Below are positions 21,601 through 34,915 of a DNA stretch of 34,915 nt, piece after piece (position 1 is the first letter of the stretch; each line of letters begins with the position of its first letter). Origin of the DNA: a virus; IMG/VR virus record IMGVR_UViG_3300048446_000361, positions 1 through 34,915 of that record; one strand, 5' to 3'. The position numbers and the translations under genes were made by a program. The notes beneath the pieces are model-generated. The model was not told where the DNA came from, ran no database searches, and saw nothing but the letters and a program-made list of their open reading frames with translations.

Positions 21601-24600
21601 GAACCTTGCAGTTCACTTGTGATCTAGATGGTAATACAGTACAGAAAGCATACCCACGTGCTGAATATGATTATCCATCTGGGCGCTGGTTACCGATTAG
21701 TAATGTAACTACAAATACATTTGATATCAACGTTGGTCCTTCTTCCTATAAAGGTGCTCACACATTTACTGGAGCTACCTCTAGTGGTGTTCGCAGACAA
21801 GACGGAACGTTCACTATCAACGTTGGTACATCATCCGACACAAGCGTACATACCTTTGTGGGAGCAACTACTGATGCAGTAAGACATCTTCCACAATCTA
21901 CACATACGTTTATTACTGCTGCTGCAGATTCAGTTAAGCACTTACCACAATCTGCTCACACCTTTGTGAGAGCAAATCAAAATGCACTGGAAGTTTATCC
22001 TCCAGGTTCTGCACCTCTATGTGCAAGCATTGCATCAAACATTGCCACTTCAATGAATCTGTTTGAGTCTATTCTTGATGGAACGATTCAAGCAGGAGCA
22101 ACAACACCAACATATGGTACGTTGTATGTTACAGACAATGTAATCACATATCCAGATTCTTTCATCTATGATCTAGATGATGTCAGAATGGCTGTTCGTG
22201 GTACATATAACGATAACCCGATTATTGAGGCATCTCCATACACCCAAAACGCATCTGTTATCTCCTTCCTAGGTGGTGGCGGTGCTGAGATTGATGGTGA
22301 CAAGGTTAAGCAACCTAACTGCCCCTTCCCTGGTCTTGAGATCGACGGAACAGCATCTTTCCCCAATCAGGGTAAGTCGATGGTTGCATCGGCGTTCACG
22401 ATCGTTTCTTTCGGTGGTACAGGTTATAAGATTATTAATGATGGTTACACCCAGTTAGTTTCTGTATTCTGTATTTTCTGTGCTGATGGTGTTCTTTCTG
22501 AGTCTGGTGGTTATTGTTCCATCACGAACTCTGCTACAAACTTTGGTATCTATGCTCTGAGAGCAACTGGTTTCCGTAGAGATCCATACGTCTTTGACGC
22601 TGGTTACTTTGCTAGTGGAACTTATATCCGTGCAACTATCACTAATGTCTCGCAGACACCTACAGGAAGAACAATCTTTACGATTGAAAACCTAGGTCGC
22701 GAACCTCTGGAGCACTATATCCTCAAGGTTGATGGTTACACTAACTCCGATGAAGATACCGAATACTTTATCGACGAAATTACTCAAGTTGGTGCAGGTC
22801 CACCGTTCACATCTACATGTATCTTTGATGACGGTTCTGGTGGTGCAGTAAGTCTTATCGATAACGCCACTGGTCAAGCCGTTACGCCTGCTGCTCTTGA
22901 TGGTGCCACAGTTAATCTTCATAGACCATCTATTGTTAACTCCTCGGCACATACCTGGGAATTTGCTGGTTCGGGAACGAACTACTTGGCACTACCAGAA
23001 AATGGTGGTGTTAAAGTTGAAGCAAATGAGCAATTCAACGAAAATTATGGTCGTGTTTATTGCTCTGGTACTGATGAACTTGGTGACTTCAAGGTTGGTA
23101 CATTTGCTAAGATCGAGAACAGAACTGGTAACATTACCTTCACGGGTACAGTTACAATTTCGGAAGTTGAATTCTTGAAACTGAAAGGTGGCGACGTTGT
23201 TGTCACAGGTTTCGATGATGCTAATACACTTGGTGGTGCTAATTCTTCTAACAGTAAGATCCCAACACAGAAGGCAGTTAGAGACTTCATCACTAATAAC
23301 CTTGGTGCATACATCCAGAAAGAATATTCAACCAACTCTGTTCCTAGAGCACTGGTCGAACTAACTGATTCTGGTAAGATTTCACTTGATCAGATTCCTG
23401 CACTACGTCCTTTCCAAGTCTTCACGATTGCTGATCAAGCAGAAAGACTTGCAATTGAAGGAGCTCTTGCTGGTGATATTGCAATTGAACAAGATACATC
23501 TACATCGTTCATTCTAAACAATGATAACGGTAGTCAGTTCTTGTCATTCCAAGTTGACCCAAGTCTAACATTTACTCTCAATGATATTTTTGAGGGTAGC
23601 GTTTCTGGTGGTCAGATTCAAGCAACGGAATACAGACAGGGTGTTCTTTACCAAATCAATATCACTGATCCTGGTAGTGGATACACACAACCTCCAGTTA
23701 TTACAATCTCTGGTGGATCTCCACAAGCAGGTTCAGTTTCTGCTATTGCTGGTTGTACTATTGCTAATGGTCAACTTGTCACCATTACTATCCTAGAGCA
23801 AAACAGTTACGTTGGTGGTAAAGGATACAGTGTTGCTCCCGTTATTAACATTGCTGCTCCTCCAGGAGGAGGTACACAAGCAACAGCACTTGGTCTAATT
23901 GAAAGTAGACTTTACGGTAATATTGTCAACAACGTCAAAATTACTGATACAGATACATTTGATTCTAGCGATATTCCTAATGTTAGTGTTAACATTAATA
24001 GAGCAATCAACACATCTTCCAGTAATATTAACAACTGGGTGAGTCTATCAACCACTACTGTTGATGCTAGAGATATTACAGGTGGTCCTATTGCAACTGA
24101 CTTGCTGTCAACCAATTCAACTTCTGCAAACTCAAACACCTTCTTGAGAGGAGACCAATCTTATGCATTGGTAGTACAATCAATTAAAGGTCCAGAAGAA
24201 AGATACTTCGCGAAACTAGCTGTTCCAGCACAAAGTGGTGGAGTCAGTATGATCTTCTCTACCAACCAGAATGCACTGAAAGGTCATATTGTTAAGAACA
24301 GTGTTACTGGTATTCAAGAAGATACGATTATCAATTCTGTTATTACAGAAAATAGTCTCACCACACTCACTTTTGATCAATCAAAAGCACTGACATCTAC
24401 AATTCCAGCTGGAACAATTATTGAGTTTACTAGAGCTGCTTCTCCAATCAGATTTGACTCTACGTTTACTCAAGGTAACTTTGTTGAAGAAGTTATCATT
24501 GCTAACGGTGGTAGTGGATTTACTAACGGTACATATTACAACCAATTGATTACTGGTGGTACTGGTACTGGATTTAAACTAACACTTATTGTTGCTAATA

Positions 24601-27311
24601 ATGCAGTTGATGAAGTCATCATCACTACAGGCGGTACTGGTTATACAACCGACTTCCAAGTTAATACTGCTCCAACTGATCTTGGTAGTGGTACAGGATT
24701 AGATCTCAGATGTAAGATTTCTACAATCAATAGACAGTATGCAAACGTTACTGTTGATATTGATAGAGTAGTTCAAGCATCACTTGACCCAGAATATGGT
24801 ACAACAGGTGTTGCTAGATTTGATAAGGCACAGTTCTTTATCGGTGATGCAGGTGATGGTTCTATCAGACTGAAGACTGCTTCTAACAGTATTGACTCTG
24901 GTCTAGACGCTGACCTTCTGGATGGCAAGCAAGGTTCGTTCTATCAGAATGCTGGTAGTTTGACTGCTGGTACAATTGATTCTGATAGATTAGCAGGAAC
25001 CTATAATATTAATATTTCTGGTCAGTCCCAGAAATGTATCAGACTACTAACTGCTACTTCTCAACCATCTTCCAACCCATCTCCTAATACTTTCGCTGAA
25101 GGTATTATTGTTAACACCAAGAACAACAACAGTAACCAGCTTCTAGACGGTGGCACCAAGCATATGGTGCTGACGCTAAGACCTGGACCTGACGCTACTT
25201 TTGGTGGTATCAGACAGTTGGCATTTACTGATAATGACAACATGTGGTTGCGTGGTTCAGGAACGGGTGTTACCACATTCGGTACATGGGCACAAATTTG
25301 GACATCTGAAAACGACGGTATTGACACTGGTCTAGATGCTGACAAACTAGACAACCGTGAAGGTACTTGGTATCAGAATGCACTAAACATTAACTTCGGA
25401 GAAATTTCTGCTAATAGAGTTCCTACTTTCTTGAAGGCAACTGGATTCAGAAATGAAATCAAAGTTAAATCTTTTAATGGAGATCCTAAGTATCAGATTT
25501 ACGTCTCTGGTAAAGTTCTAACTTCTCTGCCTGCTCCTAACCCATTCACTCCTGGTAGCACGGTCAATATCTACAACGCACAATCTCAAGCAGTTGGTCT
25601 AATTGAGATTGATAACGTTATTGTTAATGATGACCTTAATGATAACAGAAATGATTACACTATCCTAATTGGTAGACTAACTAACGGCAACTTCACTGGA
25701 GCGGTCACAATTGGTACTGCTGCCGTACCTGTTGTATTCCATGACTTCAGTATCTACGATGGCAATACTATTGACGTTGTAACTATCGAAAGTGATGGTG
25801 GAACAGGTAATCTTCGCTTAGGTAGAAAAGATAACGTTGCTTCAAACCCTGGAATCTATTTCAGTTCTTCATCTCTTGCTGCTAACTACAATGCATCTAT
25901 CGTTGCAACTGGTGGTACTGCAACTGATGGTTCTGGTACACTGAATGTTCAGGTTGCATCTGCGGATGGTTTTGGTGTTAACGGTAACGTTGTTTGGAAC
26001 GAAGGTAACGTCCAATTCAATTCAACCAATGTTCTAGGAACTGCGGTTATTCGTGACAATACTGGATCATTTGAAGCACACAAAATTACTTTGGTTGCTG
26101 ATGCAAATGGCATTGAAGGAGAAGTAGTTGGTAAAGCAACTGCTAACGTCCTCAAAGAAGGTGATACGATGTCTGGCACACTGAACATCAGTGGTGCTGC
26201 ATCCAATCTTTCGGTTCAAGGAACTACAGGTCTAACAGGTAATGTCACACTAACAAGTGATCTTACAGTTGCAAGCGACGTTCTCTATGTTGATTCTGCT
26301 AATGAAGAAGTTGGTGTTGGTACAAACAATCCATCAGATAAGTTAAGTCTAGTTGGTGGTTCTTTCTCAGTCAATTCTGGATCGGGTGGTAACTCACTTA
26401 CAACAGCACAGGGTCTTGGACTTACATATGACTCTGCCACAAGTCGTGGTTATATTATTGCTAAGTCCACCACAACTTCCACAGACATCACTTTCGCTAC
26501 TTCTAATAGCGGAACACTACTTGATAAGATCAGATTAGATGCGACAGGTGATTTCTTCCCATTGACTGCTACGCAAGATCTGGGTCTAAATTCTACTAAC
26601 AACATCTATCGTAATGCATATATCAGAAATGTATACGCTAAAGATAAGGTAACCATTCAAGATGCTGGTGGTAACGATGGAGCTCCTGCATACTTCCTTG
26701 GTGCATCTGGTTTCCGTAACTTCCGTGTTGGTAGTCAACTGCTTGCAGACGACACCTTCGAGATTACACCAAGCACCACTAATGGTGGACAGGTTTGGGG
26801 AGCCACTCCTGCACTGTTTATCAAGGGTTCAACTAATAGAGTTGCAATCAATACCACTAACTTTAATGGTACTGACACTTCAGGTTCCACGCCAGTTGTT
26901 AGAGATTATCAACTAAATATTCAAGGCGACCTTAACTTTAATGGTCAACTGTTCCAGAACAACGAAGAATTCGTTACTTCTAGATGGACACTAAACAAAA
27001 ATACTAACAACATCTGGAGAATTTCTAGAGTTGGTATTAACCAGGCAAATCCAGATTATCAACTGGATGTCAACGGTAGTCTTAATGTTCGTGGATCTAC
27101 ATTTGTTTCTGGATCAAATACTGATGTAATTACTGTTAACGGTGATGTTCAGTACGTTGATACTTATGGCGTCTTCAAGACAAACCGTAATACAGTTAAT
27201 GAGAATGTGACTATTCCTGCAAATACCAATGCAGTATCTGCGGGTCCACTGACTATAAATAATAACATAACAATTACCATTGCAAACGGAAGTTCCTGGA
27301 GTGTTGTATAA
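15612..27311 (+). CDS. Giant modular tail-fibre-like protein, 3899 aa
   Basis: The ATG at 15612 follows a purine-rich possible Shine-Dalgarno. Domains in order: two GSGY-type modules 43 residues apart (from about residues 70 and 113); a DRSDKIATTEYV block and the start of a beta-helix-like region (about 295, GRIYVSSQIGNDLNDGRS); a helical domain (about 783) interrupted by four ~85-aa repeats (from 826) and short His-Thr repeats; a second helical domain (about 1470-1575); one divergent plus four further repeats (1579-2050) and more His-Thr repeats; a strongly patterned block around ISFLGGGGAEIDG and GKSMVASAFTIVSFGGTGY (about 2215-2320); a fibre motif IPTQKAVRDFITNNLG (about 2550); more GSGY modules; two DSGLDADLLDG / DTGLDADKLDN modules (about 3097 and 3237); and terminal fibre motifs NEEVGVGTNNPSDKL and NPDYQLDVNGSLNV. 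No enzyme motif is visible. This is a host-contacting fibre or sheath-like appendage. The next gene starts immediately after its stop. Confidence 0.85.
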   Translation: MSFNINSDKEFISGSRPQFIGTTQFSIRAGTGVDEKEVIRTLLDSEEKLPRVGINRTGQRVNNIAILTQGSGYTVEPTVTVGPPPQGENAKQALASAFIFNGRIVNIAVNDPGSGYSTAPSVVITGGNGAGASAEAFLDTVDFELDINGAIRTSTSIISDTARILNLDIDNFVTPDLNLRGPNLKNYVNNTGTIWVANTIVQKDVYRYFGANVYQSLNAGQTGPNAPEHLDGIVLNNEVNFKHIGFRVVDENAFGYNETGEAGIFPRSITPLLGDRSDKIATTEYVLNLATNDVGGRIYVSSQIGNDLNDGRSAVNPVRSIKKAAQLAWETPGVKETIIVSGGDYVEDNPISLPPDASVVGDNLRLVIVRPNNPGKHIFKFGDKNYVIGVTYRDKIDANGDAISTWDFAMVFDDKQRINVDSEVNGDFGVNFPIGHQVFGPDKFRIDFQNNTGLSQLVSGLEAVGVNTGARGDISNVVFSTIIGNNAYQNGSLDVEITSGSFLEGEGFRYIIGGTQGASLTSSTGTVGVNQFAITSNPTPAGLIVGAYIYLDGTANSEVGQGFYEIIQIDDDNEPTQWEITVAPLLSSIGWRDTAAGNINIYAASITEGSFDSTKIRSIRAEGEVVFQDDDYTTPLPIVRMDFSLQGDPSIATGGFQNTQFGDAEDLGGVVFYTSALSGRQNFHDFKEGQEILIEGLSTSAPDLSFLNGRQRIYKVIEDADGRARRFVIPKKVPAGLGLNANNNFDPGQFAVVKSASRSVTLSLLNSPNKFPLAQPVDRRFQDAAIFIRNNREFIADEVVGRINREFAQDYHSVYSIGGQSFGSYTASDATYNPATGEFVITMASHGLSVGEGIRIADNSFVFTCAMDGNATEHSLPESTQYASGKSLPILESTTNTVTVNVGASGPNQYYTPSNASYDPTLGTLQLIIGSHSLTPGEGVVIDNNSLSFKCAMDGYDSVKTYPRAGIDPYASRSIPITSVTADSITLQVGISRENFSMTPTAVTYNAATGDMTVDVGQHGLGVGRSVVLNDNSFTFTCDLDGNTVQKTYPRPGQDPYAGKSIAITSVGTTSHTPTDVDYDASTGDIEMTINSHGFSTGDYIKVDDGSLVFTCALDGNVAQKAYPRAGFDLPSGRWLEITVVDSSNIRFNVGPSSYTGLHTWISAAADAVKRQDGTFTINVGDAGAASGSNHVWIAAASGAIKHEPRANHLFQGSTTNAIRHLPQSAHTFVRSTSNGITTGGSSFKIYLGNTDHIHTYVSGGTVTFGGNDYAITSFDYDSVVTGVAEITTTSSIPGLAEDDIVKLADLLISCDAGTKVYPSYSSPTSGNNVNLSNGDEQCRQDLNHFMNAVIRDLEFGTNHNVIDSAKKFIVNDKITYIEDEIVQNVRAIEYARELIRYAVCNWRTENRTPADPIYTPVYSGVTRYFDDTVITSTAGTPACANVISAIDVLSYLWVDVITNNASGTQLDAAYLIARNADLIADQALLDTKSAYPTLNLSDVMERKCKRDIKIVLEGLAKDLVLGGNSGIVAVAESYFAGAALVAIPEAQREETIYAYQRVQLHAIAAMRNWTGGNVIDVTPNTAQYNSSTGQLSLTITDPGLTITANDRIAFKEGALTFNCAYGGGGDHSNPRPGDANYGKSQPIISASSAGGVTTIVCNVGNAGLAAGLTHTLTSALTDGTIIIYDPIETTSVIPQFEDWNILIDINGTASSIQITPESATYDPATGLFVVTSTGHSVAQGDQVQIAPESVVFTCAMDGNQTEHALPSSGQDAYNNILTVDSVTANTFTIDVGESGSDIQFTPSDVSYDPATGDLEINVGPHTLSVGEGIVIADNAFTFTCDMDDNQSQKTYPRLGIDPYAGRSMPITSTSATTITVNAGASGPNKFFTPSAAVYDPATGAMTLTVGQHGLGQWRNVTIANNSFTFTCAADGNATQHTYPRSGQDPFADNKSIAITDVGFTAHTVTDADYNASTGNVELTISNHGFANGDYIMVLDGTLQFTCDLDGNTVQKAYPRAEYDYPSGRWLPISNVTTNTFDINVGPSSYKGAHTFTGATSSGVRRQDGTFTINVGTSSDTSVHTFVGATTDAVRHLPQSTHTFITAAADSVKHLPQSAHTFVRANQNALEVYPPGSAPLCASIASNIATSMNLFESILDGTIQAGATTPTYGTLYVTDNVITYPDSFIYDLDDVRMAVRGTYNDNPIIEASPYTQNASVISFLGGGGAEIDGDKVKQPNCPFPGLEIDGTASFPNQGKSMVASAFTIVSFGGTGYKIINDGYTQLVSVFCIFCADGVLSESGGYCSITNSATNFGIYALRATGFRRDPYVFDAGYFASGTYIRATITNVSQTPTGRTIFTIENLGREPLEHYILKVDGYTNSDEDTEYFIDEITQVGAGPPFTSTCIFDDGSGGAVSLIDNATGQAVTPAALDGATVNLHRPSIVNSSAHTWEFAGSGTNYLALPENGGVKVEANEQFNENYGRVYCSGTDELGDFKVGTFAKIENRTGNITFTGTVTISEVEFLKLKGGDVVVTGFDDANTLGGANSSNSKIPTQKAVRDFITNNLGAYIQKEYSTNSVPRALVELTDSGKISLDQIPALRPFQVFTIADQAERLAIEGALAGDIAIEQDTSTSFILNNDNGSQFLSFQVDPSLTFTLNDIFEGSVSGGQIQATEYRQGVLYQINITDPGSGYTQPPVITISGGSPQAGSVSAIAGCTIANGQLVTITILEQNSYVGGKGYSVAPVINIAAPPGGGTQATALGLIESRLYGNIVNNVKITDTDTFDSSDIPNVSVNINRAINTSSSNINNWVSLSTTTVDARDITGGPIATDLLSTNSTSANSNTFLRGDQSYALVVQSIKGPEERYFAKLAVPAQSGGVSMIFSTNQNALKGHIVKNSVTGIQEDTIINSVITENSLTTLTFDQSKALTSTIPAGTIIEFTRAASPIRFDSTFTQGNFVEEVIIANGGSGFTNGTYYNQLITGGTGTGFKLTLIVANNAVDEVIITTGGTGYTTDFQVNTAPTDLGSGTGLDLRCKISTINRQYANVTVDIDRVVQASLDPEYGTTGVARFDKAQFFIGDAGDGSIRLKTASNSIDSGLDADLLDGKQGSFYQNAGSLTAGTIDSDRLAGTYNINISGQSQKCIRLLTATSQPSSNPSPNTFAEGIIVNTKNNNSNQLLDGGTKHMVLTLRPGPDATFGGIRQLAFTDNDNMWLRGSGTGVTTFGTWAQIWTSENDGIDTGLDADKLDNREGTWYQNALNINFGEISANRVPTFLKATGFRNEIKVKSFNGDPKYQIYVSGKVLTSLPAPNPFTPGSTVNIYNAQSQAVGLIEIDNVIVNDDLNDNRNDYTILIGRLTNGNFTGAVTIGTAAVPVVFHDFSIYDGNTIDVVTIESDGGTGNLRLGRKDNVASNPGIYFSSSSLAANYNASIVATGGTATDGSGTLNVQVASADGFGVNGNVVWNEGNVQFNSTNVLGTAVIRDNTGSFEAHKITLVADANGIEGEVVGKATANVLKEGDTMSGTLNISGAASNLSVQGTTGLTGNVTLTSDLTVASDVLYVDSANEEVGVGTNNPSDKLSLVGGSFSVNSGSGGNSLTTAQGLGLTYDSATSRGYIIAKSTTTSTDITFATSNSGTLLDKIRLDATGDFFPLTATQDLGLNSTNNIYRNAYIRNVYAKDKVTIQDAGGNDGAPAYFLGASGFRNFRVGSQLLADDTFEITPSTTNGGQVWGATPALFIKGSTNRVAINTTNFNGTDTSGSTPVVRDYQLNIQGDLNFNGQLFQNNEEFVTSRWTLNKNTNNIWRISRVGINQANPDYQLDVNGSLNVRGSTFVSGSNTDVITVNGDVQYVDTYGVFKTNRNTVNENVTIPANTNAVSAGPLTINNNITITIANGSSWSVV
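15819..15990 (+). repeat. Two GxGYxxxPxV modules at the N-terminus of the giant fibre
   Basis: Residues 70-78 (GSGYTVEPT) and 113-121 (GSGYSTAPS) begin two modules 43 residues apart, each followed by a short beta strand and a Gly/Ala-rich turn. Similar modules recur near 23670-23860 and 24490-24670 in the same gene, and in gp8, the DUF4815-type protein and the 1295-aa protein. Confidence 0.65.
17955..20330 (+). other. Two copies of a helical domain, the first interrupted by the repeat array
   Basis: Copy 2 (about 20010-20330) has AYLIARNADLIADQALLDTK, KCKRDIKIVLEGLAKDLVLGGNS and a following helix. Copy 1 is in two pieces: DAAIFIRNNREFIADEVVGR (about 17958-18017) and QCRQDLNHFMNAVIRDLEFG (about 19624-19683). 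Between them lie about 1.6 kb of repeat units. The pattern C-x-RD ... D-L-x-G-x-N is shared by both copies. Confidence 0.6.
18087..19323 (+). repeat. Repeat block 1: units A-D plus four His-type short repeats
   Basis: Units start at 18087 (A), 18345 (B), 18606 (C) and 18828 (D). Each follows the pattern Y-[DN]-x3-G-x10-H-x9-G, then FxCxxDG, then (in B-D) a YPR or similar motif and a closing VG strand. After D, from 19086, four short repeats of about 17 residues follow, of the form H-x-[FW]-x5-A-[IV]-x-H-x-P-x-[SA]. Most units carry one Cys at a fixed position. Confidence 0.8.
20346..21990 (+). repeat. Repeat block 2: divergent unit E, units F-I plus four His-type short repeats
   Basis: Unit E starts at 20346 and is divergent. 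F, G, H and I start at 20757, 21015, 21276 and 21501, and the short His repeats at 21759. F-I match A-D in order and length: start offsets are 2670, 2670, 2670, 2673 and 2673 bp for A/F, B/G, C/H, D/I and the tail. D and I share PSGRW, VGPSSY and RQDGTFTINVG. C and H share a 20-bp exact match (18705-18724 and 21375-21394). The two blocks are therefore one duplicated super-unit. Confidence 0.8.
22080..22650 (+). other. Strongly patterned beta-rich block in the giant fibre
   Basis: Residues about 2157-2346 contain ASVISFLGGGGAEIDG, PNCPFPGLEID, FPNQGKSMVASAFTIVSFGG and SESGGYCSITNSATNFGIYA. I recognise this only as a segment that recurs in cyanophage structural proteins. The regular strand-turn pattern suggests beta-helix rungs, perhaps continuing the beta-helix-like start near residue 295. 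Confidence 0.45.
27254..27261 (+). promoter_or_regulatory. Perfect late promoter octamer TATAAATA inside the 3' end of the giant fibre gene
   Basis: TATAAATA lies 51 bp before the ATG of the first glycine-rich adhesin gene, within the last 20 codons of the preceding gene. It is identical to the octamer before gp8. It would allow the adhesin cassette to be transcribed separately from the 11.7-kb fibre gene. Confidence 0.65.
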
Positions 27312-28061
27312 ATGAGTAGCATATTTGTAAACAATTTAAAATCTACAACAGGAAATACTATTCTGATTCCAGCTGGACACTCTTTGTCTCTAGATGGTTC
27401 AGTTGTTACAGGTCAGTCTTTGATTCCTAGTCCATCTGGACAAGCAGGAAAACTTATCAGATCTGATGGAAGTAATTTAGGATGGGGTGAAACTGGTGCT
27501 AAAAACATCATTCAATTTACCCAATCTGGAACTTATACTCCTTCCGCTGGTACTAGACTAGCTCATGTTAGAGTTGTTGGTTCTGGTGGTGGCGGTTCTG
27601 GTTATGCAGAATCTGGTGGATCTGGAGGTTATGCCGAAGGATTCTTTGATATGACAGGTGTTAGTTCTGTCACTATCAGTGTTGGTAATGGTGGTTCTGC
27701 AACCTATTACTCTGGTAGTGCTGGTACTGGAGGAGCTGTTAGTTTCGGCAATTATATTACCTGCAATGGTGGAGCTGGTGCCAACAGCACTGCTCAACAT
27801 TGTGGAGGAATTGGTGGATCAGCATCAGGTGGAAATATGTCTTTCTATGGTGGCGGCGGTTGCGGTCACGGTTACAATAGTAGGGCAGGTTCTAACTGGT
27901 TTGGTGGAGCTGGTGCTAATGGTCACCCTCAAGGTGGAGCATATGCCAATAATCATAGATCACATTCTGTTCCAGGAACAGGTGGTGCTAATGGTTGGGC
28001 TCGTAGCTACCCTGGCAATGTCGGTATTGAAGGTCAAGTAGTAATTTGGGAATATAGTTAA
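27312..28061 (+). CDS. Glycine-rich tail-fibre adhesin paralogue 1, 249 aa
   Basis: The ATG directly follows the stop of the giant fibre gene. The N-terminus (about 1-60) has a VNNLKSTTGNTILIPAG pattern and SLSLDGSVV, then an SPSGQAGKL block; it probably serves for trimerisation or attachment. A QSGTYTPSAG strand leads to the phage glycine-rich domain (about 90-249): GGGGSGYAESGGSGGYAEGF, MTGVSSVTISVGNGG, QHCGG, FYGGGGCGH and GGAGANGHPQGG. The Gly runs between variable His/Asn/aromatic segments resemble the polyglycine-II layered adhesins of T-even-like phages (gp38 type), which bind the host receptor at the fibre tip. That assignment is by pattern, not alignment. The stop overlaps the next ATG by one base. 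Paralogues 2 and 3 follow. Confidence 0.8.
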   Translation: MSSIFVNNLKSTTGNTILIPAGHSLSLDGSVVTGQSLIPSPSGQAGKLIRSDGSNLGWGETGAKNIIQFTQSGTYTPSAGTRLAHVRVVGSGGGGSGYAESGGSGGYAEGFFDMTGVSSVTISVGNGGSATYYSGSAGTGGAVSFGNYITCNGGAGANSTAQHCGGIGGSASGGNMSFYGGGGCGHGYNSRAGSNWFGGAGANGHPQGGAYANNHRSHSVPGTGGANGWARSYPGNVGIEGQVVIWEYS

Positions 28062-28825
28062 TGTCAATTTTAAGAGTAAATGAAATCAGGTCCCAATCGG
28101 GAAATACTATTACTGTTCCATCTGGATACCAGTTGTCATTGGATGGCAGTATTGTCAACTCAAATTCACTTCCTCCAGATCCATCTGGACAAGCTGGTAA
28201 ATTTTTACAAGCAAATTCAAGTGCCACCAGCACTGGATGGGTAAACGTTGGTCCAGATGCTATTAGAGTATTTACATCCAACTCAACTTGGACTAAACCA
28301 TCTGGTATCACTAAAATTTTAGTTAAAGTTGTTGGTGGTGGTGGATCAGGATCTGGTGTTGGCGAAAATGGTGCAGCAGGTGGTTATTCAGAAAGATTGA
28401 TTGATGTAACAGGTGTAACAAGCGTTAACGTTACCATTGGTACTGGAAGTACCGCTTCCACATATTATGCAAATACTGCGGGTGCTGGTTCTGCATCTTC
28501 GTTTGGATCTTTTATATCCTGTAGTGGAGGAAAGGGTGGAAACCAATCACATCAACATTGTGGTGGACTTCCTGGTGTAGGAACTGGTGGAGATTTCAAC
28601 ATGTATGGTGGTGGCGGAAACGGTCACATGTACTGGTCTGGTCCTCCTGGTGGTAGTTCTTACTGGGGTGGAGCAGGTGCTACTGGGCACCCTCAAGGTG
28701 GCGACTATGCTTATCAACATAGTTCGCATGCTCCGCCAGGATGCGGCGGACCCGCTGGTTACCATACTTCCCGACGTGGAGCAAATGGTAGAGATGGTAT
28801 GGTTGTTGTTTACGAATTTAGATAG
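28061..28825 (+). CDS. Glycine-rich tail-fibre adhesin paralogue 2, 254 aa
   Basis: The architecture matches paralogue 1: VNEIRSQSGNTITVPSGYQL and SLDGSIV at the N-terminus, an NSTWTKPSGITKILVKVVGG strand, then the Gly-rich domain with DVTGVTSVNVTIGTGS, QHCGGLPGVGTGG, MYGGGGNGH and GGAGATGHPQGG. The framework is conserved, but the segments after GGGGNGH (MYWSGPPGGSSYW), after GHPQGG (DYAYQHSSHAPPGC) and before the C-terminus (GYHTSRRGANGRDG) differ from the neighbours. Those segments are candidate receptor-binding loops. The start uses a TAATG overlap. It shares exact 39-bp and 30-bp tracts with paralogue 3. Confidence 0.8.
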   Translation: MSILRVNEIRSQSGNTITVPSGYQLSLDGSIVNSNSLPPDPSGQAGKFLQANSSATSTGWVNVGPDAIRVFTSNSTWTKPSGITKILVKVVGGGGSGSGVGENGAAGGYSERLIDVTGVTSVNVTIGTGSTASTYYANTAGAGSASSFGSFISCSGGKGGNQSHQHCGGLPGVGTGGDFNMYGGGGNGHMYWSGPPGGSSYWGGAGATGHPQGGDYAYQHSSHAPPGCGGPAGYHTSRRGANGRDGMVVVYEFR

Positions 28826-29341
28826 ATGTCAACACTTAATGTAAATCGAATTGAATCGTCTGACGGTTCTAGTATTCTAGTTCCTGCTGGATATTCACTC
28901 AGTATCGATGGTACTGTGATGAATAAGGATACGCTACCGCCAAGTCCTAGTGGACATTCAGGCAAATTCCTATTCAGTGATGGAACAAACCTAACATGGT
29001 CTGTTGCTGGTCCAAAAAGTATGCAGCAATTTATTTCCAACGGTACTTGGACTAAACCAGCTGGAATCACTAAAATTCTTGTAATGGTACAAGGTGGCGG
29101 TGGTGCTGGTAGTGGTCACTCAGAATCTGGTGGCGCTGGTGGGTATACCGAAAAATTGATTGATGTAACAGGTGTAACAAGCGTTAACGTTACTGTAGGT
29201 GCGGGTTCCACTAGCTGGTCTTATTATTCAGGTGCGGGTGGCGGAGGTGCTTCTTCTTCATTCGGAAGTTATTGTTCTGCTACTGGTGGTAAAGGCGCTA
29301 ATACAACAAACCAACATTGTGGTGGACTTCCTGGTGTAGGA
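28396..29341 (+). repeat. Exact 39-bp and 30-bp tracts shared by adhesin paralogues 2 and 3
   Basis: A 39-bp tract is identical at 28396-28434 and 29155-29193 and encodes the DVTGVTSVNVT strand. A 30-bp tract is identical at 28553-28582 and 29312-29341 and encodes QHCGGLPGVG. Both encode framework, not variable loops. Synonymous identity over these lengths suggests recent recombination, gene conversion or recent duplication. Confidence 0.85.
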
Positions 29342-29590
29342 TCTGGTGGAGATATTAATCTCTATGGTGGCGGTGGTACTGGGCATATGTCTTGGGCATG
29401 TATGAAAGGAGGAAGTTCTTTCTTTGGTGGTGCTGGTGTAGGTGGTCACCCTAGGGGTGGTAATATTATTCATGCCAATGATGATAAAGCAGCATATGGT
29501 TCGGGTGGACCTGGTGGATATACTAGTAACTCAACTACTAAAGCTGCAAGAGGCAAACATGGAGTCGTAGTTGTCTACGAATATACTTGA
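28826..29590 (+). CDS. Glycine-rich tail-fibre adhesin paralogue 3, 254 aa
   Basis: The ATG abuts the stop of paralogue 2. The N-terminus has VNRIESSDGSSILVPAGYSL, SIDGTVM and an SPSGHSGKF block, then NGTWTKPAGITKILVMVQGG, the Gly-rich region with SGGAGGYTEKLIDVTGVTS, QHCGGLPGVGSGG, LYGGGGTGH and GGAGVGGHPRGG, and a VVVVYEYT end. The loops differ from the other two: MSWACMKGGSSFF, NIIHANDDKAAYGS and GYTSNSTTKAARGKHG. The C-terminal VVxxYEx ending is common to copies 2 and 3. It probably has the same adhesin role with different receptor specificity. A late promoter octamer overlaps its stop codon. Confidence 0.8.
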   Translation: MSTLNVNRIESSDGSSILVPAGYSLSIDGTVMNKDTLPPSPSGHSGKFLFSDGTNLTWSVAGPKSMQQFISNGTWTKPAGITKILVMVQGGGGAGSGHSESGGAGGYTEKLIDVTGVTSVNVTVGAGSTSWSYYSGAGGGGASSSFGSYCSATGGKGANTTNQHCGGLPGVGSGGDINLYGGGGTGHMSWACMKGGSSFFGGAGVGGHPRGGNIIHANDDKAAYGSGGPGGYTSNSTTKAARGKHGVVVVYEYT

Positions 29591-29596
29591 TAAATA
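29589..29596 (+). promoter_or_regulatory. Candidate late promoter GATAAATA before the 155-aa gene
   Basis: GATAAATA overlaps the stop codon of adhesin 3 and lies 26 bp before the ATG at 29622. It fits the NATAAATA late -10 form. It is the last such element seen before the enzyme genes, so it may drive them too. Confidence 0.55.
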
Positions 29597-29621
29597 GTAA
29601 TACAAGATTTCAACTATCCAA

Positions 29622-30089
29622 ATGAAAAGCGTACTTATTGATACTAAGGGTCATATTAATGATGTTGTAGAACCAGGTCAAGAATTTCCTGTATTTACTG
29701 GTCCTGGTGCTGTTTGCTGTTGGGTAACTTGTCAAGATGATAATGTTACCTCATGCTGGTTGATGACTAATAAGACCTGGTTGGCACCAGAAAACCGTTA
29801 TGAAAACGGTCAAAGTGTCAAGCGCCAAATTGCTTATGGGGAAGTGGGCGAACAGTTGGACATGATGTATAAAGATCAACTCAATGGTACTACCAATTGG
29901 AGAGATCATGTCAATACTGTTAAGTCAACCATTCAATCTGAAGCTGCTTTTGCTGCAGATGACAGAAACAGAGTAGGTAAAACTGAAGTTAAACTTCATG
30001 ATGATTCCAACCCTGCATGGTTGCATCTTCCAGAAGGTGATAACATTATTGAAAATATTCCAACGGGTGTTGTATACGAAACTGAGTAA
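29622..30089 (+). CDS. Small conserved cyanophage protein, possible fibre assembly factor, 155 aa
   Basis: The N-terminal half (about 1-60) is a small beta domain with DTKGHINDVVEPGQEFPVF and a Cys-rich GAVCCWVTCQDDNVTSCW. The middle (about 70-105) has GEVGEQLDMMYKDQLNGTTN and then WRDHVNTVKSTIQ. I recognise the QLDMMY-x-D-x-x-NGTT pattern from many small phage proteins encoded next to tail-fibre genes, where it often ends a fibre-associated protein. There is no signal peptide or membrane helix. Its position right behind the adhesins fits a fibre-assembly or accessory role, but this is inferred. The gene is preceded by a candidate late promoter. Confidence 0.65.
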   Translation: MKSVLIDTKGHINDVVEPGQEFPVFTGPGAVCCWVTCQDDNVTSCWLMTNKTWLAPENRYENGQSVKRQIAYGEVGEQLDMMYKDQLNGTTNWRDHVNTVKSTIQSEAAFAADDRNRVGKTEVKLHDDSNPAWLHLPEGDNIIENIPTGVVYETE

Positions 30090-30098
30090 TAAATTATC

Positions 30099-31673
30099 AT
30101 GAATGTAAATTCGGTATGCATCGTAGGGGGTGGTTCCTCTGGGTGGATGACTGCTGCACTTTTAGCATACAATCTACCAAATTTAAAAATTACTGTAATT
30201 GAACCAAAAGACATTGCAACTGTAGGTGTAGGTGAATCTACCTTAGGTCACATTAATAGATACTTAGACTGTATTGGACTTACTGGCAAAGATTCTGAAT
30301 GGATGCCAGCATGTGATGCTACATATAAAGTTTCTATTCAGTTTACTGATTTTAGAAAGAAAGGCACTCGTTTTCAATACCCATTTGGGCAAGTTGACTA
30401 CACTAATAAAGTTGGAACTGATGATTGGGATTATATTAAAAATCTACATGAAGATACAGATTTTTCAGAATTCTATAATCCAATTACATACCTAGCAGAT
30501 AACAATGTGATGACGGGTGATGCTGCTATCATCAGAAATTTTAATTTTACTAAAGATACAGCATATCATTTTGATGCTACCAAATTTGGTGCATGGTTAA
30601 AAGATAACATTTGTATTCCTAGGGGTGTTAATGTAGTACGAGATAGCGTTGCTAAGATCTTCCGAAAAACTAATGGAAGTGATGAGGTTGACTTTCTGCA
30701 ATTGAAAGGATCTCCAATGCTAAAGATCGAAGCAGATCTTTTTATTGATTGTACTGGATTTAAATCTTTGCTGTTGGAACAGGAGATGGGATCTGAGTTT
30801 ATTAGTTTCAATGATGTATTGTTAAATGATACTGCTATTGCTACTCGCATTCCTTTCGTAGATAAAGAAAAAGAATTACATAACACTACAGACTGTCATG
30901 CTTTACAATATGGTTGGGTATGGAATATTCCTCTGTGGTCCCGAATCGGTACTGGTTACTGCTACTCTAGCAAGTTTACTACAGATGAACTTGCAGAGAA
31001 AGAATTCAGAAAACATTTAGCAAAATCTGATGTCAAGCGAGCAGAAGAAGCAGAATTCTTCAAGATTGATATTAGACATGGAAAAAGAAAAAAAGCATGG
31101 GTTAAAAATGTAGTTGGTATTGGATTGTCATATGGATTTCTAGAACCTTTGGAATCTACTGGACTTTTAACAACACATGAAAATGCTTTACGATTGCTAG
31201 CAACTTTAGAAAAACGTAATGGTTTAGTTAAGCGTCCAGACATTGAAGGATATAATCTTGCTGTAGATCAAGACATCGAAAGTATGAAAGGATTTATTGC
31301 TATGCATTATTTGCTTTCAGAAAGAAAAGATTCTACTTACTGGAAATATCTAACAGAAGAAATTGAATTTCCTGAGATGTATGATATGATTGTAAGAAGT
31401 CCTAGACTTTATCAAGAATTTGTTTATGGAACTTCTGCATATAATAACTGGGGAAGTTTAGATGGTCTTTTGTATATTGCTGCTGGAATGGGCATGCGAC
31501 CTTTGGGTACTACCGAATGCAAGTATAGATTGAGAGATGGATTCGTAAATGCTGAAGCATTGGAAGAATCTTACAATAAGCATATTCATTATAAAGAACA
31601 GGTATTGAAACATGTCGAAAAGATGCCTAGTACATTTGAATTTTTGAGAGATAATGTTTACAAATCCATTTAA
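30099..31673 (+). CDS. prnA-like: Flavin-dependent tryptophan-halogenase-like protein, 524 aa
   Basis: These enzymes use reduced FAD, O2 and chloride or bromide to form hypohalous acid, which is guided through the protein to halogenate tryptophan or another aromatic. The FAD-binding motif is VCIVGGGSSGWMTAALL (residues 6-22). GVGEST follows at 43-48. Lys77 in WMPACDATYKVSIQF aligns by context with the catalytic Lys79 of PrnA. WVWNIP (273-278) is the WxWxIP motif typical of halogenases rather than monooxygenases. FLEPLESTG (Glu349, Glu352) matches the loop holding the catalytic Glu346 of PrnA. The length of 524 aa is normal for the family (about 510-550). No flavin reductase is visible nearby, so the host would have to supply FADH2. 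The substrate is unknown. The next gene overlaps by 20 bp. Confidence 0.9.
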   Translation: MNVNSVCIVGGGSSGWMTAALLAYNLPNLKITVIEPKDIATVGVGESTLGHINRYLDCIGLTGKDSEWMPACDATYKVSIQFTDFRKKGTRFQYPFGQVDYTNKVGTDDWDYIKNLHEDTDFSEFYNPITYLADNNVMTGDAAIIRNFNFTKDTAYHFDATKFGAWLKDNICIPRGVNVVRDSVAKIFRKTNGSDEVDFLQLKGSPMLKIEADLFIDCTGFKSLLLEQEMGSEFISFNDVLLNDTAIATRIPFVDKEKELHNTTDCHALQYGWVWNIPLWSRIGTGYCYSSKFTTDELAEKEFRKHLAKSDVKRAEEAEFFKIDIRHGKRKKAWVKNVVGIGLSYGFLEPLESTGLLTTHENALRLLATLEKRNGLVKRPDIEGYNLAVDQDIESMKGFIAMHYLLSERKDSTYWKYLTEEIEFPEMYDMIVRSPRLYQEFVYGTSAYNNWGSLDGLLYIAAGMGMRPLGTTECKYRLRDGFVNAEALEESYNKHIHYKEQVLKHVEKMPSTFEFLRDNVYKSI

Positions 31674-32436
31674 GAAAAAAAGATCTATTAGATTTCATAC
31701 ACTACATCCAGGTGCAAATACTTTCTATCCTATAATTAATTCATCAAAATTAAATAGAGATTGGGTACAAGAAGAAAAAGAAGATTATAAAAAAAGATCT
31801 AAATGCCCATTTGGTTTTGGAGAACCACCAGCACATAGTATCAATAAATGCCCTGCTATTCATATGATTATGAATCAGGGATATATTATTAAAACTCCAT
31901 TTGATATTAATGTTACTAGAGTAGATGATAAATTAGAGGTTCAAGCATCTAATCTTATTCCACATCTTCCAAGTGTAGTAACACATGGCGAAGAAGTTTC
32001 TAAATGGTTGTTAGATAGTTCTAAAGATAATACTGCACCAGAAATATTAAAAGTCAATACACCATGGCGTGTTACTACAAATGATAATGACTTAATTTTT
32101 CTAGTTGTTAAAGTTCCTCACACTAAAGAAGATAGATTTTCTGCAGTGATGGGTGTCATGGATCCAAAAACTGCTTTTGAAATTAATGTGCAGTTGCTTT
32201 GGCATTTGCCTAAAAATGAAAGTTCTACTATTAAAGCAGGAACACCATTGTGTATGTACATTCCAATGTCAAGACAGTATCTAAACACATCTTTTGTATG
32301 TGAGGATGCAGACGAGAGAGACTGGAATGTTGAGAAAGAAATGACCTATTCATATACACATGTCAATTCATCTACTAACACATTAGGAGATCGAGTATCA
32401 AGAGTTGTAAAAATTCTAAAAAAATATTATGATTGA
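31654..32436 (+). CDS. DUF6065-like protein of unknown function, 260 aa
   Basis: The ATG lies inside the last codons of the halogenase gene (20-bp overlap), so translation is probably coupled. The centre, INKCPAIHMIMNQGYIIKTP (about 67-86), then a beta-rich stretch with NTPWRVTTNDNDLIFLV and AFEINVQLLWHLPK, resembles the DUF6065 family as I remember it, a beta-barrel-like protein of unknown function. An intact AGTPLCMYIPMSRQ follows near residue 199. No membrane helix is visible. Being between a halogenase and four oxygenases suggests a partner or substrate-handling role. The family name is a moderate-confidence recall. Confidence 0.6.
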   Translation: MFTNPFKKKRSIRFHTLHPGANTFYPIINSSKLNRDWVQEEKEDYKKRSKCPFGFGEPPAHSINKCPAIHMIMNQGYIIKTPFDINVTRVDDKLEVQASNLIPHLPSVVTHGEEVSKWLLDSSKDNTAPEILKVNTPWRVTTNDNDLIFLVVKVPHTKEDRFSAVMGVMDPKTAFEINVQLLWHLPKNESSTIKAGTPLCMYIPMSRQYLNTSFVCEDADERDWNVEKEMTYSYTHVNSSTNTLGDRVSRVVKILKKYYD

Positions 32437-33016
32437 TTTATTCCCTGTTCAAATTTACAAAGGTCATATTGAACAAGAAGATAATATCTTGTATGACCAA
32501 GTTAAAAAATTTCTAGAAGGTACTACAAAAAATTTGTGGACAGGTGAATCTGGATGGAGTACTGGAGAAAAAAGTCTTGCTTTGTGGGAACATGTACATC
32601 TAGATCCTTTGTTTAAATCTATGATGCCATCTGTATATGAGTATTGGGATGCTTTAGATTATATTCCTGCTGATATTACTGTACAATCATGTTGGTCAAA
32701 TTTACATAACTCTAATGATGTAACAGAAGAACACTCTCATTGTGATGGATTTCGTGGCGCTAATATTTTATCTGGTGTATACTACCTGAGGAAACCCACC
32801 GAAGCAAATATAAGATTCATTAATCCTTTGGAATATATTCTGCGAATGACACCATATAGTACTATGCAGGGTATTAAATCAATATCAACTGAAGTTGAAT
32901 GCAGTGAAGGTGACTTCTTGTTATGGCCGTCTTGGTTAAAACATAGAGTTGAACCATCAGAATATGATGGAGAACGTATCGCAATTTCTTTTAACTTTAG
33001 TGGTAACCCACAATGA
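32429..33016 (+). CDS. 2-oxoglutarate/Fe(II)-dependent oxygenase-like protein, 195 aa (copy 1)
   Basis: Family members use Fe(II), O2 and 2-oxoglutarate, usually to hydroxylate a substrate. The fold markers resemble the TIGR02466 / 2OG-FeII_Oxy_5 family: FPVQIYKG at the N-terminus, EEHSHCDGF with ANILSGVYYLRKP, then LLWPSWLKHRVEP and ERIAISFNF at the C-terminus. Candidate ligands are His104 and Asp106 (HxD) and His172, with Arg183 as the likely 2-oxoglutarate carboxylate contact. The length of 195 aa is typical. The gene overlaps its upstream neighbour by 8 bp and the next by 4 bp. It is closely similar in layout to the 33774 gene, so the two are paralogues. Substrate unknown. Confidence 0.85.
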   Translation: MIDLFPVQIYKGHIEQEDNILYDQVKKFLEGTTKNLWTGESGWSTGEKSLALWEHVHLDPLFKSMMPSVYEYWDALDYIPADITVQSCWSNLHNSNDVTEEHSHCDGFRGANILSGVYYLRKPTEANIRFINPLEYILRMTPYSTMQGIKSISTEVECSEGDFLLWPSWLKHRVEPSEYDGERIAISFNFSGNPQ

Positions 33017-33777
33017 TATTTTTGAGGATGGATCCTAGTTCGGTAGATTTTCCGAAACTGATCAAAACAAACAAACTTCAATACGAAGAGGTAAAGGTAA
33101 CAGATGATATTTCATATTACGAAGTCCACGAAATCTTTGAGAGTGATGGGTTCGATCGATTCCAAAACTTTATTCAGTCTAATCCTATCTGGAGGATGAA
33201 CAACGAACCAGACCTACCAGACATGAATCCGTTTTCCACAATTCATTTACCTATGTGGGCAACGAAAGAATTGTTTTCTATGGTCTCAGAACTATACGTA
33301 AAGACAGCAAAACATATTCCATCATATAGAACTGACACTTTTCTTTCTAACCAAGATTGGGGAAACATTTATTTTAAAGAAGAATGTAGACCTATCAAAA
33401 AATGGAGACTGCCTCATATAGATTTTGTTGCTGGCATGGCTGCTAACATGTGGTTTACTGATCATACTCCTGGATCTTCAGGAACTGTTTTGTGGAAATA
33501 TGTTGGCGGCGAGATTCAGAATGGTGTATTTGAATATCAAGGAAACCCAGAGCACCCTAGATATGCTGAGTGGCATGCTATGGATCCATTAGATAGAGAT
33601 ACACATTGGACTAATTTTACTGAGGAAGAAGGTAGATATTGGGGATTTGAATCTATTGGTTTTGTGCCATCTAAATATAAATGTATGACCTGCTACCCTG
33701 CAAACGTACCACATACACCATACATCGATAACCAAATTGATTTTCGATGGTCTCATACATTTTGTGCTATTGAATGA
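33013..33777 (+). CDS. 2-oxoglutarate/Fe(II) oxygenase-like protein, 254 aa (divergent)
   Basis: The ATGA start overlaps the previous stop. The protein has WRLPHIDFVAGMAANMWF, giving His135-x-Asp137, then NVPHTPYIDNQIDFRWSHTF, giving His234 and Arg245. This is a full HxD...H...R set in the right order and with the usual Arg offset of about 11 residues from the distal His, as in prolyl-hydroxylase-like 2-oxoglutarate oxygenases. The rest is rich in Trp and Tyr and does not resemble the TIGR02466-type neighbours. I assign the fold from motif only. It lies in the same coupled operon as the other oxygenases. A different substrate is likely. Confidence 0.7.
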   Translation: MIFLRMDPSSVDFPKLIKTNKLQYEEVKVTDDISYYEVHEIFESDGFDRFQNFIQSNPIWRMNNEPDLPDMNPFSTIHLPMWATKELFSMVSELYVKTAKHIPSYRTDTFLSNQDWGNIYFKEECRPIKKWRLPHIDFVAGMAANMWFTDHTPGSSGTVLWKYVGGEIQNGVFEYQGNPEHPRYAEWHAMDPLDRDTHWTNFTEEEGRYWGFESIGFVPSKYKCMTCYPANVPHTPYIDNQIDFRWSHTFCAIE

Positions 33778-34352
33778 ATTTAGAATATATTTTTCCGACA
33801 CCTATTTGGTCGTTTGAACATACAGAAGGTTGTAGAGAAATGACAACCTATATCAAGAATGTTAAAAAAGAATCTGAAGGTAGAATAGTATCAAACGATG
33901 GTGGATGGCAATCTAACGATTTCGTACCAGGTGATCTTCCAGAATGTTTCCGACCTTTTATTAGAAATATACTTTCTAAGTGTAGATTGTGTGTACATGA
34001 ATATGGTTCTGATTATACACCATGGATAGACAATCTTTGGTTTAATATTAACAAGAAGGGTGACTCAAATAAAAGACATTTTCATGCAGAGTCTTTATTG
34101 TCTGGTGTATTCTATCTCCAGTGTACTGATGATAGTGGCAGAATTCAATTTGTCAAACAACCACTAGAAGATTACGCAGTTATATCTCATCTAGGAAAAC
34201 CTAGAATAACTAAACTATCAGCGTCTGCTTGGGAATATATTCCAACAGAATCTATGTGTCTTCTATTCCCATCATGGTTGATGCATCAGGTAGAGTCCAG
34301 TAATAGCGACACAGAAAGAATTTCTATAGCATTTAATATCAAAGTATCATGA
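33774..34352 (+). CDS. 2-oxoglutarate/Fe(II)-dependent oxygenase-like protein, 192 aa (copy 2)
   Basis: This is a clear TIGR02466 / 2OG-FeII_Oxy_5 type: FPTPIWSFEH at the N-terminus, PWIDNLWFNINKKGDSNKRH leading into HFHAESLLSGVFYLQ, then LLFPSWLMHQVESSNSD and RISIAFN. Candidate metal ligands are His104 and Glu106 (HxE rather than HxD) and His171, with Arg182 for 2-oxoglutarate. All lie at or within one residue of the same positions as in the 32429 product, which supports common origin. The gene has ATGA overlaps at both ends. The family often occurs in cyanophages near structural genes; its substrate is unknown. Confidence 0.88.
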   Translation: MNLEYIFPTPIWSFEHTEGCREMTTYIKNVKKESEGRIVSNDGGWQSNDFVPGDLPECFRPFIRNILSKCRLCVHEYGSDYTPWIDNLWFNINKKGDSNKRHFHAESLLSGVFYLQCTDDSGRIQFVKQPLEDYAVISHLGKPRITKLSASAWEYIPTESMCLLFPSWLMHQVESSNSDTERISIAFNIKVS

Positions 34353-34915
34353 AAATAATTGACAATTTTTTGCCTGTTAGTGCAGCAGAAGACATAGAAA
34401 CTACAATGACTGGGGAAGGATTTCCTTGGTATTATGTTTCTGATGTAACTAGAGAACGCCGAGTTGAAGGAGCATACTCTCAACCAGGGTTTCATCATAC
34501 GCCATTCATGAACTATAGACCCCAGTCACCTTTTCATGATTACTTTAAAATGCTGGCAATGTCAATTAAAGATGCAATTGGTCACGATGGTGATCTACAT
34601 TTGTTTAGAATTAGAGCAGGATTGAATATTGCAAATTCTAATAGCAATAAAGACTGGAAACAAGAATATAATTTTCCACATGTAGATCAAAATTCTGATT
34701 TTGTTACTTGTAAATCATATACCTGTTTGTATTATGTAAATGAAAGTGATGGTGATACTTTTATTTTTGATCAAACTGAAGAATCAAAGAACTATACTAC
34801 ACGTCATAGAGTAACTCCACATAAAAATAGAGTTATGATTTTTGATGGAGAGCAATATCATGCTAGTTCTTCTCCAGTAGTAAATGATGTACGTATAGCA
34901 ATTACATTTAATTTT
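34349..34915 (+). CDS. 2-oxoglutarate/Fe(II) oxygenase-like protein, 3' end outside window
   Basis: The ATG overlaps the preceding stop (ATGA) and the frame stays open for 189 codons to the window edge. NFPHVDQ gives His111 and Asp113, GEQYHASSSP gives His171, and DVRIAITFNF gives Arg182. This complete HxD...H...R set and the typical C-terminal RIAITFNF strand show that only a few residues are likely missing. The centre has YTCLYYVNESDGDTFIF, the usual double-stranded beta-helix strand pattern. The N-terminus (MKIIDNFLPVSAAEDIE) fits the prolyl-4-hydroxylase-like subgroup rather than the TIGR02466 type. This is the fourth oxygenase-like gene in a row. Confidence 0.85.
   Translation, partial: MKIIDNFLPVSAAEDIETTMTGEGFPWYYVSDVTRERRVEGAYSQPGFHHTPFMNYRPQSPFHDYFKMLAMSIKDAIGHDGDLHLFRIRAGLNIANSNSNKDWKQEYNFPHVDQNSDFVTCKSYTCLYYVNESDGDTFIFDQTEESKNYTTRHRVTPHKNRVMIFDGEQYHASSSPVVNDVRIAITFNF

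Follow-up and report, generated by a model that had tools for sequence, protein, structure and literature searches.

The closest structural counterpart of the proteins described here is gp24 of cyanophage Pam3, a homotrimeric fibre protein whose distal half is made up of a TNF-like and a glycine-rich domain (PMC9608196). These distal domains have been proposed to act in host recognition, proper folding of gp24 requires the chaperone gp25, and gp24 was described as resembling gp38 of phage S16 (PMC9608196). Little is understood of how the abundant cyanomyoviruses recognise their hosts, and the labels given to their tip adhesins ('tail fiber assembly', 'collagen-like', 'PE-PGRS') are misleading. 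The literature searched contained no account of three adhesin genes in tandem in a cyanophage, nor of heterotrimeric tips of such a kind. We analysed a 34.9-kb virus record (the whole stretch of 34,915 nt, hereafter the window), part of the genome of a marine T4-like cyanomyovirus. Among named viruses it stands closest to the Synechococcus phages Sf-CH3 and Sf-FP1, and also to S-RIM44; the DNA of Sf-CH3/Sf-FP1 is 77.5% identical to the window across 97% of positions 24000-34915. We consider it probable that three adjacent genes of the window encode three specialised, co-translated fibre-tip proteins that are stably different from one another and non-interchangeable.

The three genes lie in tandem on the plus strand, at 27312-28061 (copy 1, 249 aa), 28061-28825 (copy 2, 254 aa) and 28826-29590 (copy 3, 254 aa). 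All three encode glycine-rich proteins of phrog_863 (E 1e-39, 4e-57 and 3e-59, respectively), and each is the orthologue of the copy at the same position in relatives. Copy 1 starts 1 nt past an open reading frame for a giant fibre or structural protein of 3899 aa (15612-27311, plus strand), presumably a shaft that the adhesins sit on or next to, and the first copy likewise stands directly behind the fibre gene in relatives. The giant protein ends in ...ITIANGSSWSVV, a C-terminal motif that is also found upstream of the arrays in the window's clade, and the gene at this position in Sf-CH3 and S-RIM44 is annotated as 'structural protein' or 'tail fiber protein'. Copy 2 begins within the stop codon of copy 1 (TAATG), copies 2 and 3 abut (TAGATG), and a search for promoters and terminators inside the array gave no signal that clearly exceeded the shuffled expectation. 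We propose that the adhesins are co-translated from these abutting genes behind the giant fibre gene.

The adhesins are followed by the phrog_1787 gene and then by genes for a flavin-dependent halogenase and for 2OG-Fe(II) oxygenases. The order giant fibre, adhesins, phrog_1787, halogenase is kept in nearly all IMG/VR loci examined, as well as in Sf-CH3, S-RIM44, Sf-FR1, P-TIM40, Syn9 and S-WAM1. In the window, the region directly behind the adhesin module (30099-34915) holds a tryptophan-halogenase-like flavoenzyme gene followed by several 2OG-Fe(II) oxygenase genes; some relatives possess two halogenases. One- and two-copy phages encode, ahead of the adhesins, a different protein still richer in glycine (31-39% Gly, about 300 aa; L005 1408-2358, L006 654-1589 and L207 2634-3614), as do a few three-copy phages (L076, L079).

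An earlier note on this DNA had recognised three adjacent copies by their shared QHCGG, GGGGxGH and GGAGxxGHPxGG blocks, and all of these blocks are indeed present in all three open reading frames. Over their whole length the copies are 49%, 45% and 57% identical in pairwise comparison (BLASTP; E 8e-66, 2e-41 and 4e-66), and the likeness extends N-terminal of the shared blocks, over the entire protein. Since copy pairs score 130-193 bits and composition-preserving shuffles never exceed 21 bits, the copies are homologous and not simply alike through glycine bias. The intervening and following segments, said in the note to 'differ completely', retain 31-77% identity between copies, so that statement went too far: the values are 38-77% from QHCGG to GGGG, 31-46% from GGGGxGH to GGAG and 33-42% behind GHPxGG.

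To place the family, we compared its sequences and predicted structures with described proteins. Copies 2 and 3 match PF21722 (Gly_rich_2) with 44.3 and 36.6 bits, both above the Pfam cut-off of 24.3 bits, whereas copy 1 reaches only 20 bits; the same profile is matched at E<=1 by 86 of 87 relatives. AlphaFold2 models, built from alignments of the window and fetched sequences, gave a pLDDT of 88.8 for copy 2 and 83.4 for copy 1. Structural comparison with VIA-align aligned the copy 2 model with Pam3 gp24 over 182 residues (Z 21.5, 2.4 Å) and the copy 1 model over 181 residues (Z 21.1, 2.3 Å). The match to the Pam3 fibre (7ypx/7yfw; Z 20-21.5) thus covers about 180 residues (63-254), namely the half made of the TNF-like domain and the polyglycine lattice. 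The next structural matches are far lower, with the Bxb1 tail tip at Z ~15 and the ALK/LTK glycine-rich domains at Z ~10. Glycine-rich sequence can inflate such scores, although the match in these models also spans the non-repetitive TNF-like strands. Residues 1-62 contain only short strands and no helix in both models, at lower model confidence. A PDB sequence search with one copy, the 87-row profile and the chaperone profile returned no relevant match, and a degenerate-pattern search with a 19-row alignment found no stretch conserved enough.

The adhesin domain also forms the C-terminal end of the long fibre families phrog_21412 and phrog_6202. We call the products fibre-tip adhesins because they are predicted to share the fold of the receptor-binding half of Pam3 gp24 and because the same domain ends long fibres. 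The Pam3-like predicted fold, the fibre-tip PHROGs and the gene order fibre, adhesins, chaperone-like gene support the earlier description of the three proteins as adhesins. On this view the six extended, glycine-rich loops of each protein would build a distal lattice beyond a TNF-like beta domain, which follows a short region for attachment at the N-terminus (about residues 1-62). The three genes would then supply the tip proteins with which the long fibres of a T4-like cyanomyovirus bind their receptor.

The likeness to gp38-type adhesins of T-even-like phages that the note had drawn extends to architecture and not to sequence family. None of the 87 family members, the window's copies included, matches GP38 (PF05268) or Gp38_N (PF21721) at E<=1, while the positive control, S16 gp38, scored 246 bits (GP38) and 70 bits (Gp38_N). 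Consistently, hhalign of the family profile against S16 gp38 gave a probability of 3%. The S16 gp38 structure (6F45), which has a PGII-sandwich fold, is absent among the structural matches listed, an absence that carries no evidence for a different fold.

We next examined the loops, which the note had taken to be hypervariable. Tips were defined as the middle of the six loops that leave the TNF-like strands, with limits that are approximate for lack of model coordinates; in copy 2 they comprise residues 97-103, 131-138, 161-167, 189-196, 207-224 and 231-239. Among orthologues from 23 genomes, identity was 59% in the tips, 60% in the TNF-like strands and 52% at the N-terminus, so that tips and frame are conserved to about the same degree and the supposed hypervariability largely falls away. 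Conservation peaks in the glycine arms between the tips (73%), as a lattice of glycine would require. In the four closest genomes the tips showed 74/86/69% identity versus 67/73/75%. Over close pairs, pN/pS was 0.11/0.10/0.13 in the tips and 0.20/0.16/0.16 in the frame (overall range 0.10-0.21), and nonsynonymous changes were fewer in the tips (pooled odds ratio 0.67, p=3e-5, the pairs not being fully independent). As judged from these alignments, every copy is under purifying selection, which is stronger in the loop tips. The arrays of four S-RIM44 isolates differ by only 0-3 nt over their whole length.

The comparison of loops with frame across relatives gave one exception. The idea of hypervariable loops fails for copies 1 and 2 and in part for copy 3, whose L5 and L6 tips evolve fast in the nearest clade: among the window, Sf-CH3 and L010, 42 of 89 positions differ there (47%), against 84 of 492 (17%) elsewhere in the domain. 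The opposite holds for copy 2, with 8 of 81 positions differing in its L5/L6 tips and 94 of 492 outside them. The region as a whole puts these rates in context. Identity to Sf-CH3, L010 and L009 is 80-84, 73-80 and 61-75% for the adhesins, 80, 71 and 56% for the fibre C-terminus, 81, 76 and 66% for the halogenase, and only 67, 57 and 39% for the chaperone-like protein; by this measure the adhesins are not where the region evolves fast.

Differences between the copies are, in contrast, concentrated in the tips. Paralogues within a genome diverge most in the L4 and L6 tips (identity 0.29 and 0.27). We found 14 copy-diagnostic columns (null mean 0.06), and these are enriched in the tips (8 of 57 columns, against 3 of 183; p=6e-4), with a further 3 of 14 in the N-tail, that is, the first 14 residues. 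In copy 2 the L4 tip HMYWSGPP (residues 189-196; 28625-28648, plus strand) is 0.92-1.00 identical among close orthologues, and the L6 tip PAGYHTSRR (residues 231-239; 28751-28777, plus strand) has 4 of 9 columns copy-diagnostic, with GYHT specific to this copy. Together, the conserved, copy-specific N-tail and L4/L6 tips would create three different binding surfaces. Other mid-loop residues are common to the family: in 87 proteins E102, Y136 and N161 (copy 2 numbering) are invariant, and H166, H189 and H210 nearly so. Their conservation suggests a distal element that may be structural, ligand-binding or metal-binding.

Phylogenetic analysis (a tree of 128 rows, with positional orthology judged over 23 genomes) placed the position-1 proteins in one clade (100/94), the position-2 proteins in one clade (85/98) and the position-3 proteins in two neighbouring clades; copy 1 is duplicated in L030. 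A recent duplication of the copies is rejected by this tree. Exactly three family members occur in the whole genomes of Sf-CH3, S-RIM44 and Sf-FR1, and also in one 200-kb contig. The window's own clade always carries at least three adhesins (three, once four) and no degenerate copy. Other lineages (the L077 type, the L073 type and L106) have triplets of their own whose members cluster together, a pattern in the tree that fits either repeated triplication or homogenisation within the lineage. We propose that the triple set arose from old duplications and that, in the window's clade, the copies became stable, non-interchangeable subunits.

Across cyanomyoviruses the module comprises 1-4 adhesins, three being commonest. 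A dereplicated survey anchored on the adhesins found three copies in 24 of 29 arrays, two in 4 and four in 1. Because more copies raise the chance of an array being found, we repeated the survey from the chaperone-like gene, which yielded three copies in 17 of 30 arrays, two in 8 (one of them hand-corrected), one in 4 and four in 1. The obligate three-copy rule that the first survey suggested is rejected by the one-copy arrays of the second. Two irregular cases were reassigned: an apparent absence of adhesins in L189 was a two-copy array masked by an overlapping reading frame, and the seemingly single copy of S-CREM1 was two copies, one with in-frame stops. In this first adhesin gene of S-CREM1 (OP535465.1; L160 2694-3494), whose annotated product has 122 aa, a short T-rich stretch is interrupted by five TAA codons in frame, while both ends are still homologous in the proper frame; either the copy is broken or the sequence has a local error. 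Syn9 gp39 (L005 3702-4880) has 392 aa versus 272 aa in Syn10, and the C-terminus of the domain matches in another frame, which suggests a frameshift or a sequence error.

Signs of exchange between the copies were also present. A 39-nt tract in copy 2 (28396-28434, plus strand) is identical to one in copy 3 (29155-29193, plus strand) and is a candidate gene-conversion tract; it is the longest exact match between the two copies, against 14 nt expected with synonymous codons shuffled (p=1/301), and sits inside a 198-nt repeat at 73%. Matches above expectation (p<0.01) occurred in 15 of 69 within-genome copy pairs, the p-values being optimistic as the genomes are related, and for all three pairs exact tracts averaged 19-20 nt within genomes versus 12.5-13 nt between clades. 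These short tracts suggest occasional gene conversion, which would leave the identity of the copies intact. They lend weak support to the idea of a recombination reservoir raised in the note, while positional identity is kept and no copy of the clade is degenerate.

The gene behind the array (29622-30089, plus strand; phrog_1787, 155 aa) is a candidate adhesin chaperone by its position and by analogy with Pam3 gp25. It lies directly behind every complete adhesin array examined, and comparison of its product with solved chaperones gave no sequence match. By this analogy we infer that the product acts as the adhesin chaperone and probably aids adhesin folding. The protein carries a short C-terminal motif, YGxxxEQLDMxYKD...W..HI..VK, which is also seen in genes of pelagiphages and in small genes at or near the fibre genes of S-T4 and of Methylophilales phage MEP301; such proteins may possibly form a wider class of fibre chaperones. 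As to the virion, S-SZBM1 is the only published relative for which we found a per-protein virion proteome; mass spectrometry detected its fibre (S-SZBM1_52) and the next protein (_51) and neither of the two adhesins (_49, _48) (PMC9146016). Each of these two has 8-9 suitable tryptic peptides. We infer that the adhesins of the window are virion components.

This proteome is one of two points for a reading in which the proteins are intracellular tail-fibre assembly factors that never enter the virion, the other being the name of PHROG 863, 'tail fiber assembly'. That label presumably derives from the naming of T4 gp38. The predicted fold matches a receptor-binding fibre tip and not a Tfa-type chaperone, some fibre proteins carry this domain fused at their C-termini, and a separate chaperone-like gene stands behind each array; we therefore regard assembly factors as very improbable. 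Somewhat less remote, yet still improbable, is the view that the copies are gp38-type adhesins with hypervariable loops, serving as interchangeable variants or a cassette reservoir for mixed tips or host-range switching. The divergence of the L4 and L6 tips between paralogues (0.29, 0.27), the longer exact tracts within genomes than between clades and the fast L5/L6 tips of copy 3 (47% versus 17%) would all agree with it. Against this stand the conservation of the tips among orthologues (0.59, versus 0.60 in the TNF-like strands and 0.52 at the N-terminus; odds ratio 0.67), the positional orthology without degenerate copies in the window's clade, the near identity of the S-RIM44 isolates (0-3 nt) and a sequence that is not GP38.

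Within the preferred reading of three specialised tip proteins, two arrangements on the fibre can be envisaged. The copies may form separate homotrimers (or single caps) at different sites or in series, like multi-spike adhesin complexes, to which we give a little under an even chance: single-copy relatives imply that self-assembly suffices, and the copy-specific N-tails would fit separate docking sites. Alternatively, the three may join in a heterotrimeric A:B:C tip, as do C1q A/B/C with a similar jelly-roll, so that three reflects stoichiometry. The closest structure, Pam3 gp24, is trimeric (PMC9608196); both surveys have three as the modal copy number (24/29; 17/30), several distinct parts of the tree have arrived at it, the genes abut or overlap, and the N-tails are copy-specific. 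Yet one (4/30), two (8/30) or four (1/30) copies suffice in related modules, and concerted evolution could mimic separate triplications, which leaves the heterotrimer unlikely; separate homotrimers are slightly favoured over it because single-copy relatives exist. The fuller version, an asymmetric C1q-like A:B:C head on a polyglycine lattice in a module that reached three copies more than once, we would rate a shade lower still. If true, a heterotrimer would place three different, fixed binding faces on a single fibre tip.

For host-range work, the conserved module of 1-4 tip proteins and a candidate chaperone offers a concrete gene set, and the natural series of one, two, three and four copies lets one ask whether additional copies mean a wider host range or a composite tip. 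The arrays of Syn9 (gp38/gp39), P-TIM40, S-WAM1, P-RSM6, S-SZBM1, S-RIM44, Sf-CH3 and Sf-FR1 belong to the same PHROG 863 family and share the synteny with phrog_1787 and the tryptophan halogenase; copy number is 2 in Syn9, S-WAM1, P-RSM6 and S-SZBM1 and 3 in P-TIM40, S-RIM44, Sf-CH3 and Sf-FR1. No functional work on these arrays was found in the literature searched. The Bxb1 tail-tip Gly-rich proteins (9D93) and ALK/LTK have a polyglycine lattice on a jelly-roll, and the likeness is one of fold only, in contexts unrelated to the window adhesins.

Compared with Pam3 gp24 (PDB 7YPX, 7YFW), the window copies share the TNF-like and glycine-rich distal domains and a small protein encoded directly downstream (chaperone gp25 in Pam3, phrog_1787 in the window). 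In Pam3, however, one gene makes a homotrimeric fibre whose N-terminal helical baseplate-docking domain lies in the same chain, whereas the window has three separate genes behind a giant fibre gene and copies with a predicted beta-type N-terminus. The adhesins resemble T-even gp38 (S16, 6F45; PP01, 9V85; T2) in architecture, position and presumed role: in both cases a small gene, separate from the distal fibre gene and placed after it, encodes a glycine-rich lattice with protruding loops as the presumed receptor site. S16 has one copy of gp38 and the window three adhesins, and the loops, hypervariable in T-even gp38, are not hypervariable among orthologues of the window type. The receptor-binding module is ordinary in kind, and its stable three-way specialisation is unusual.
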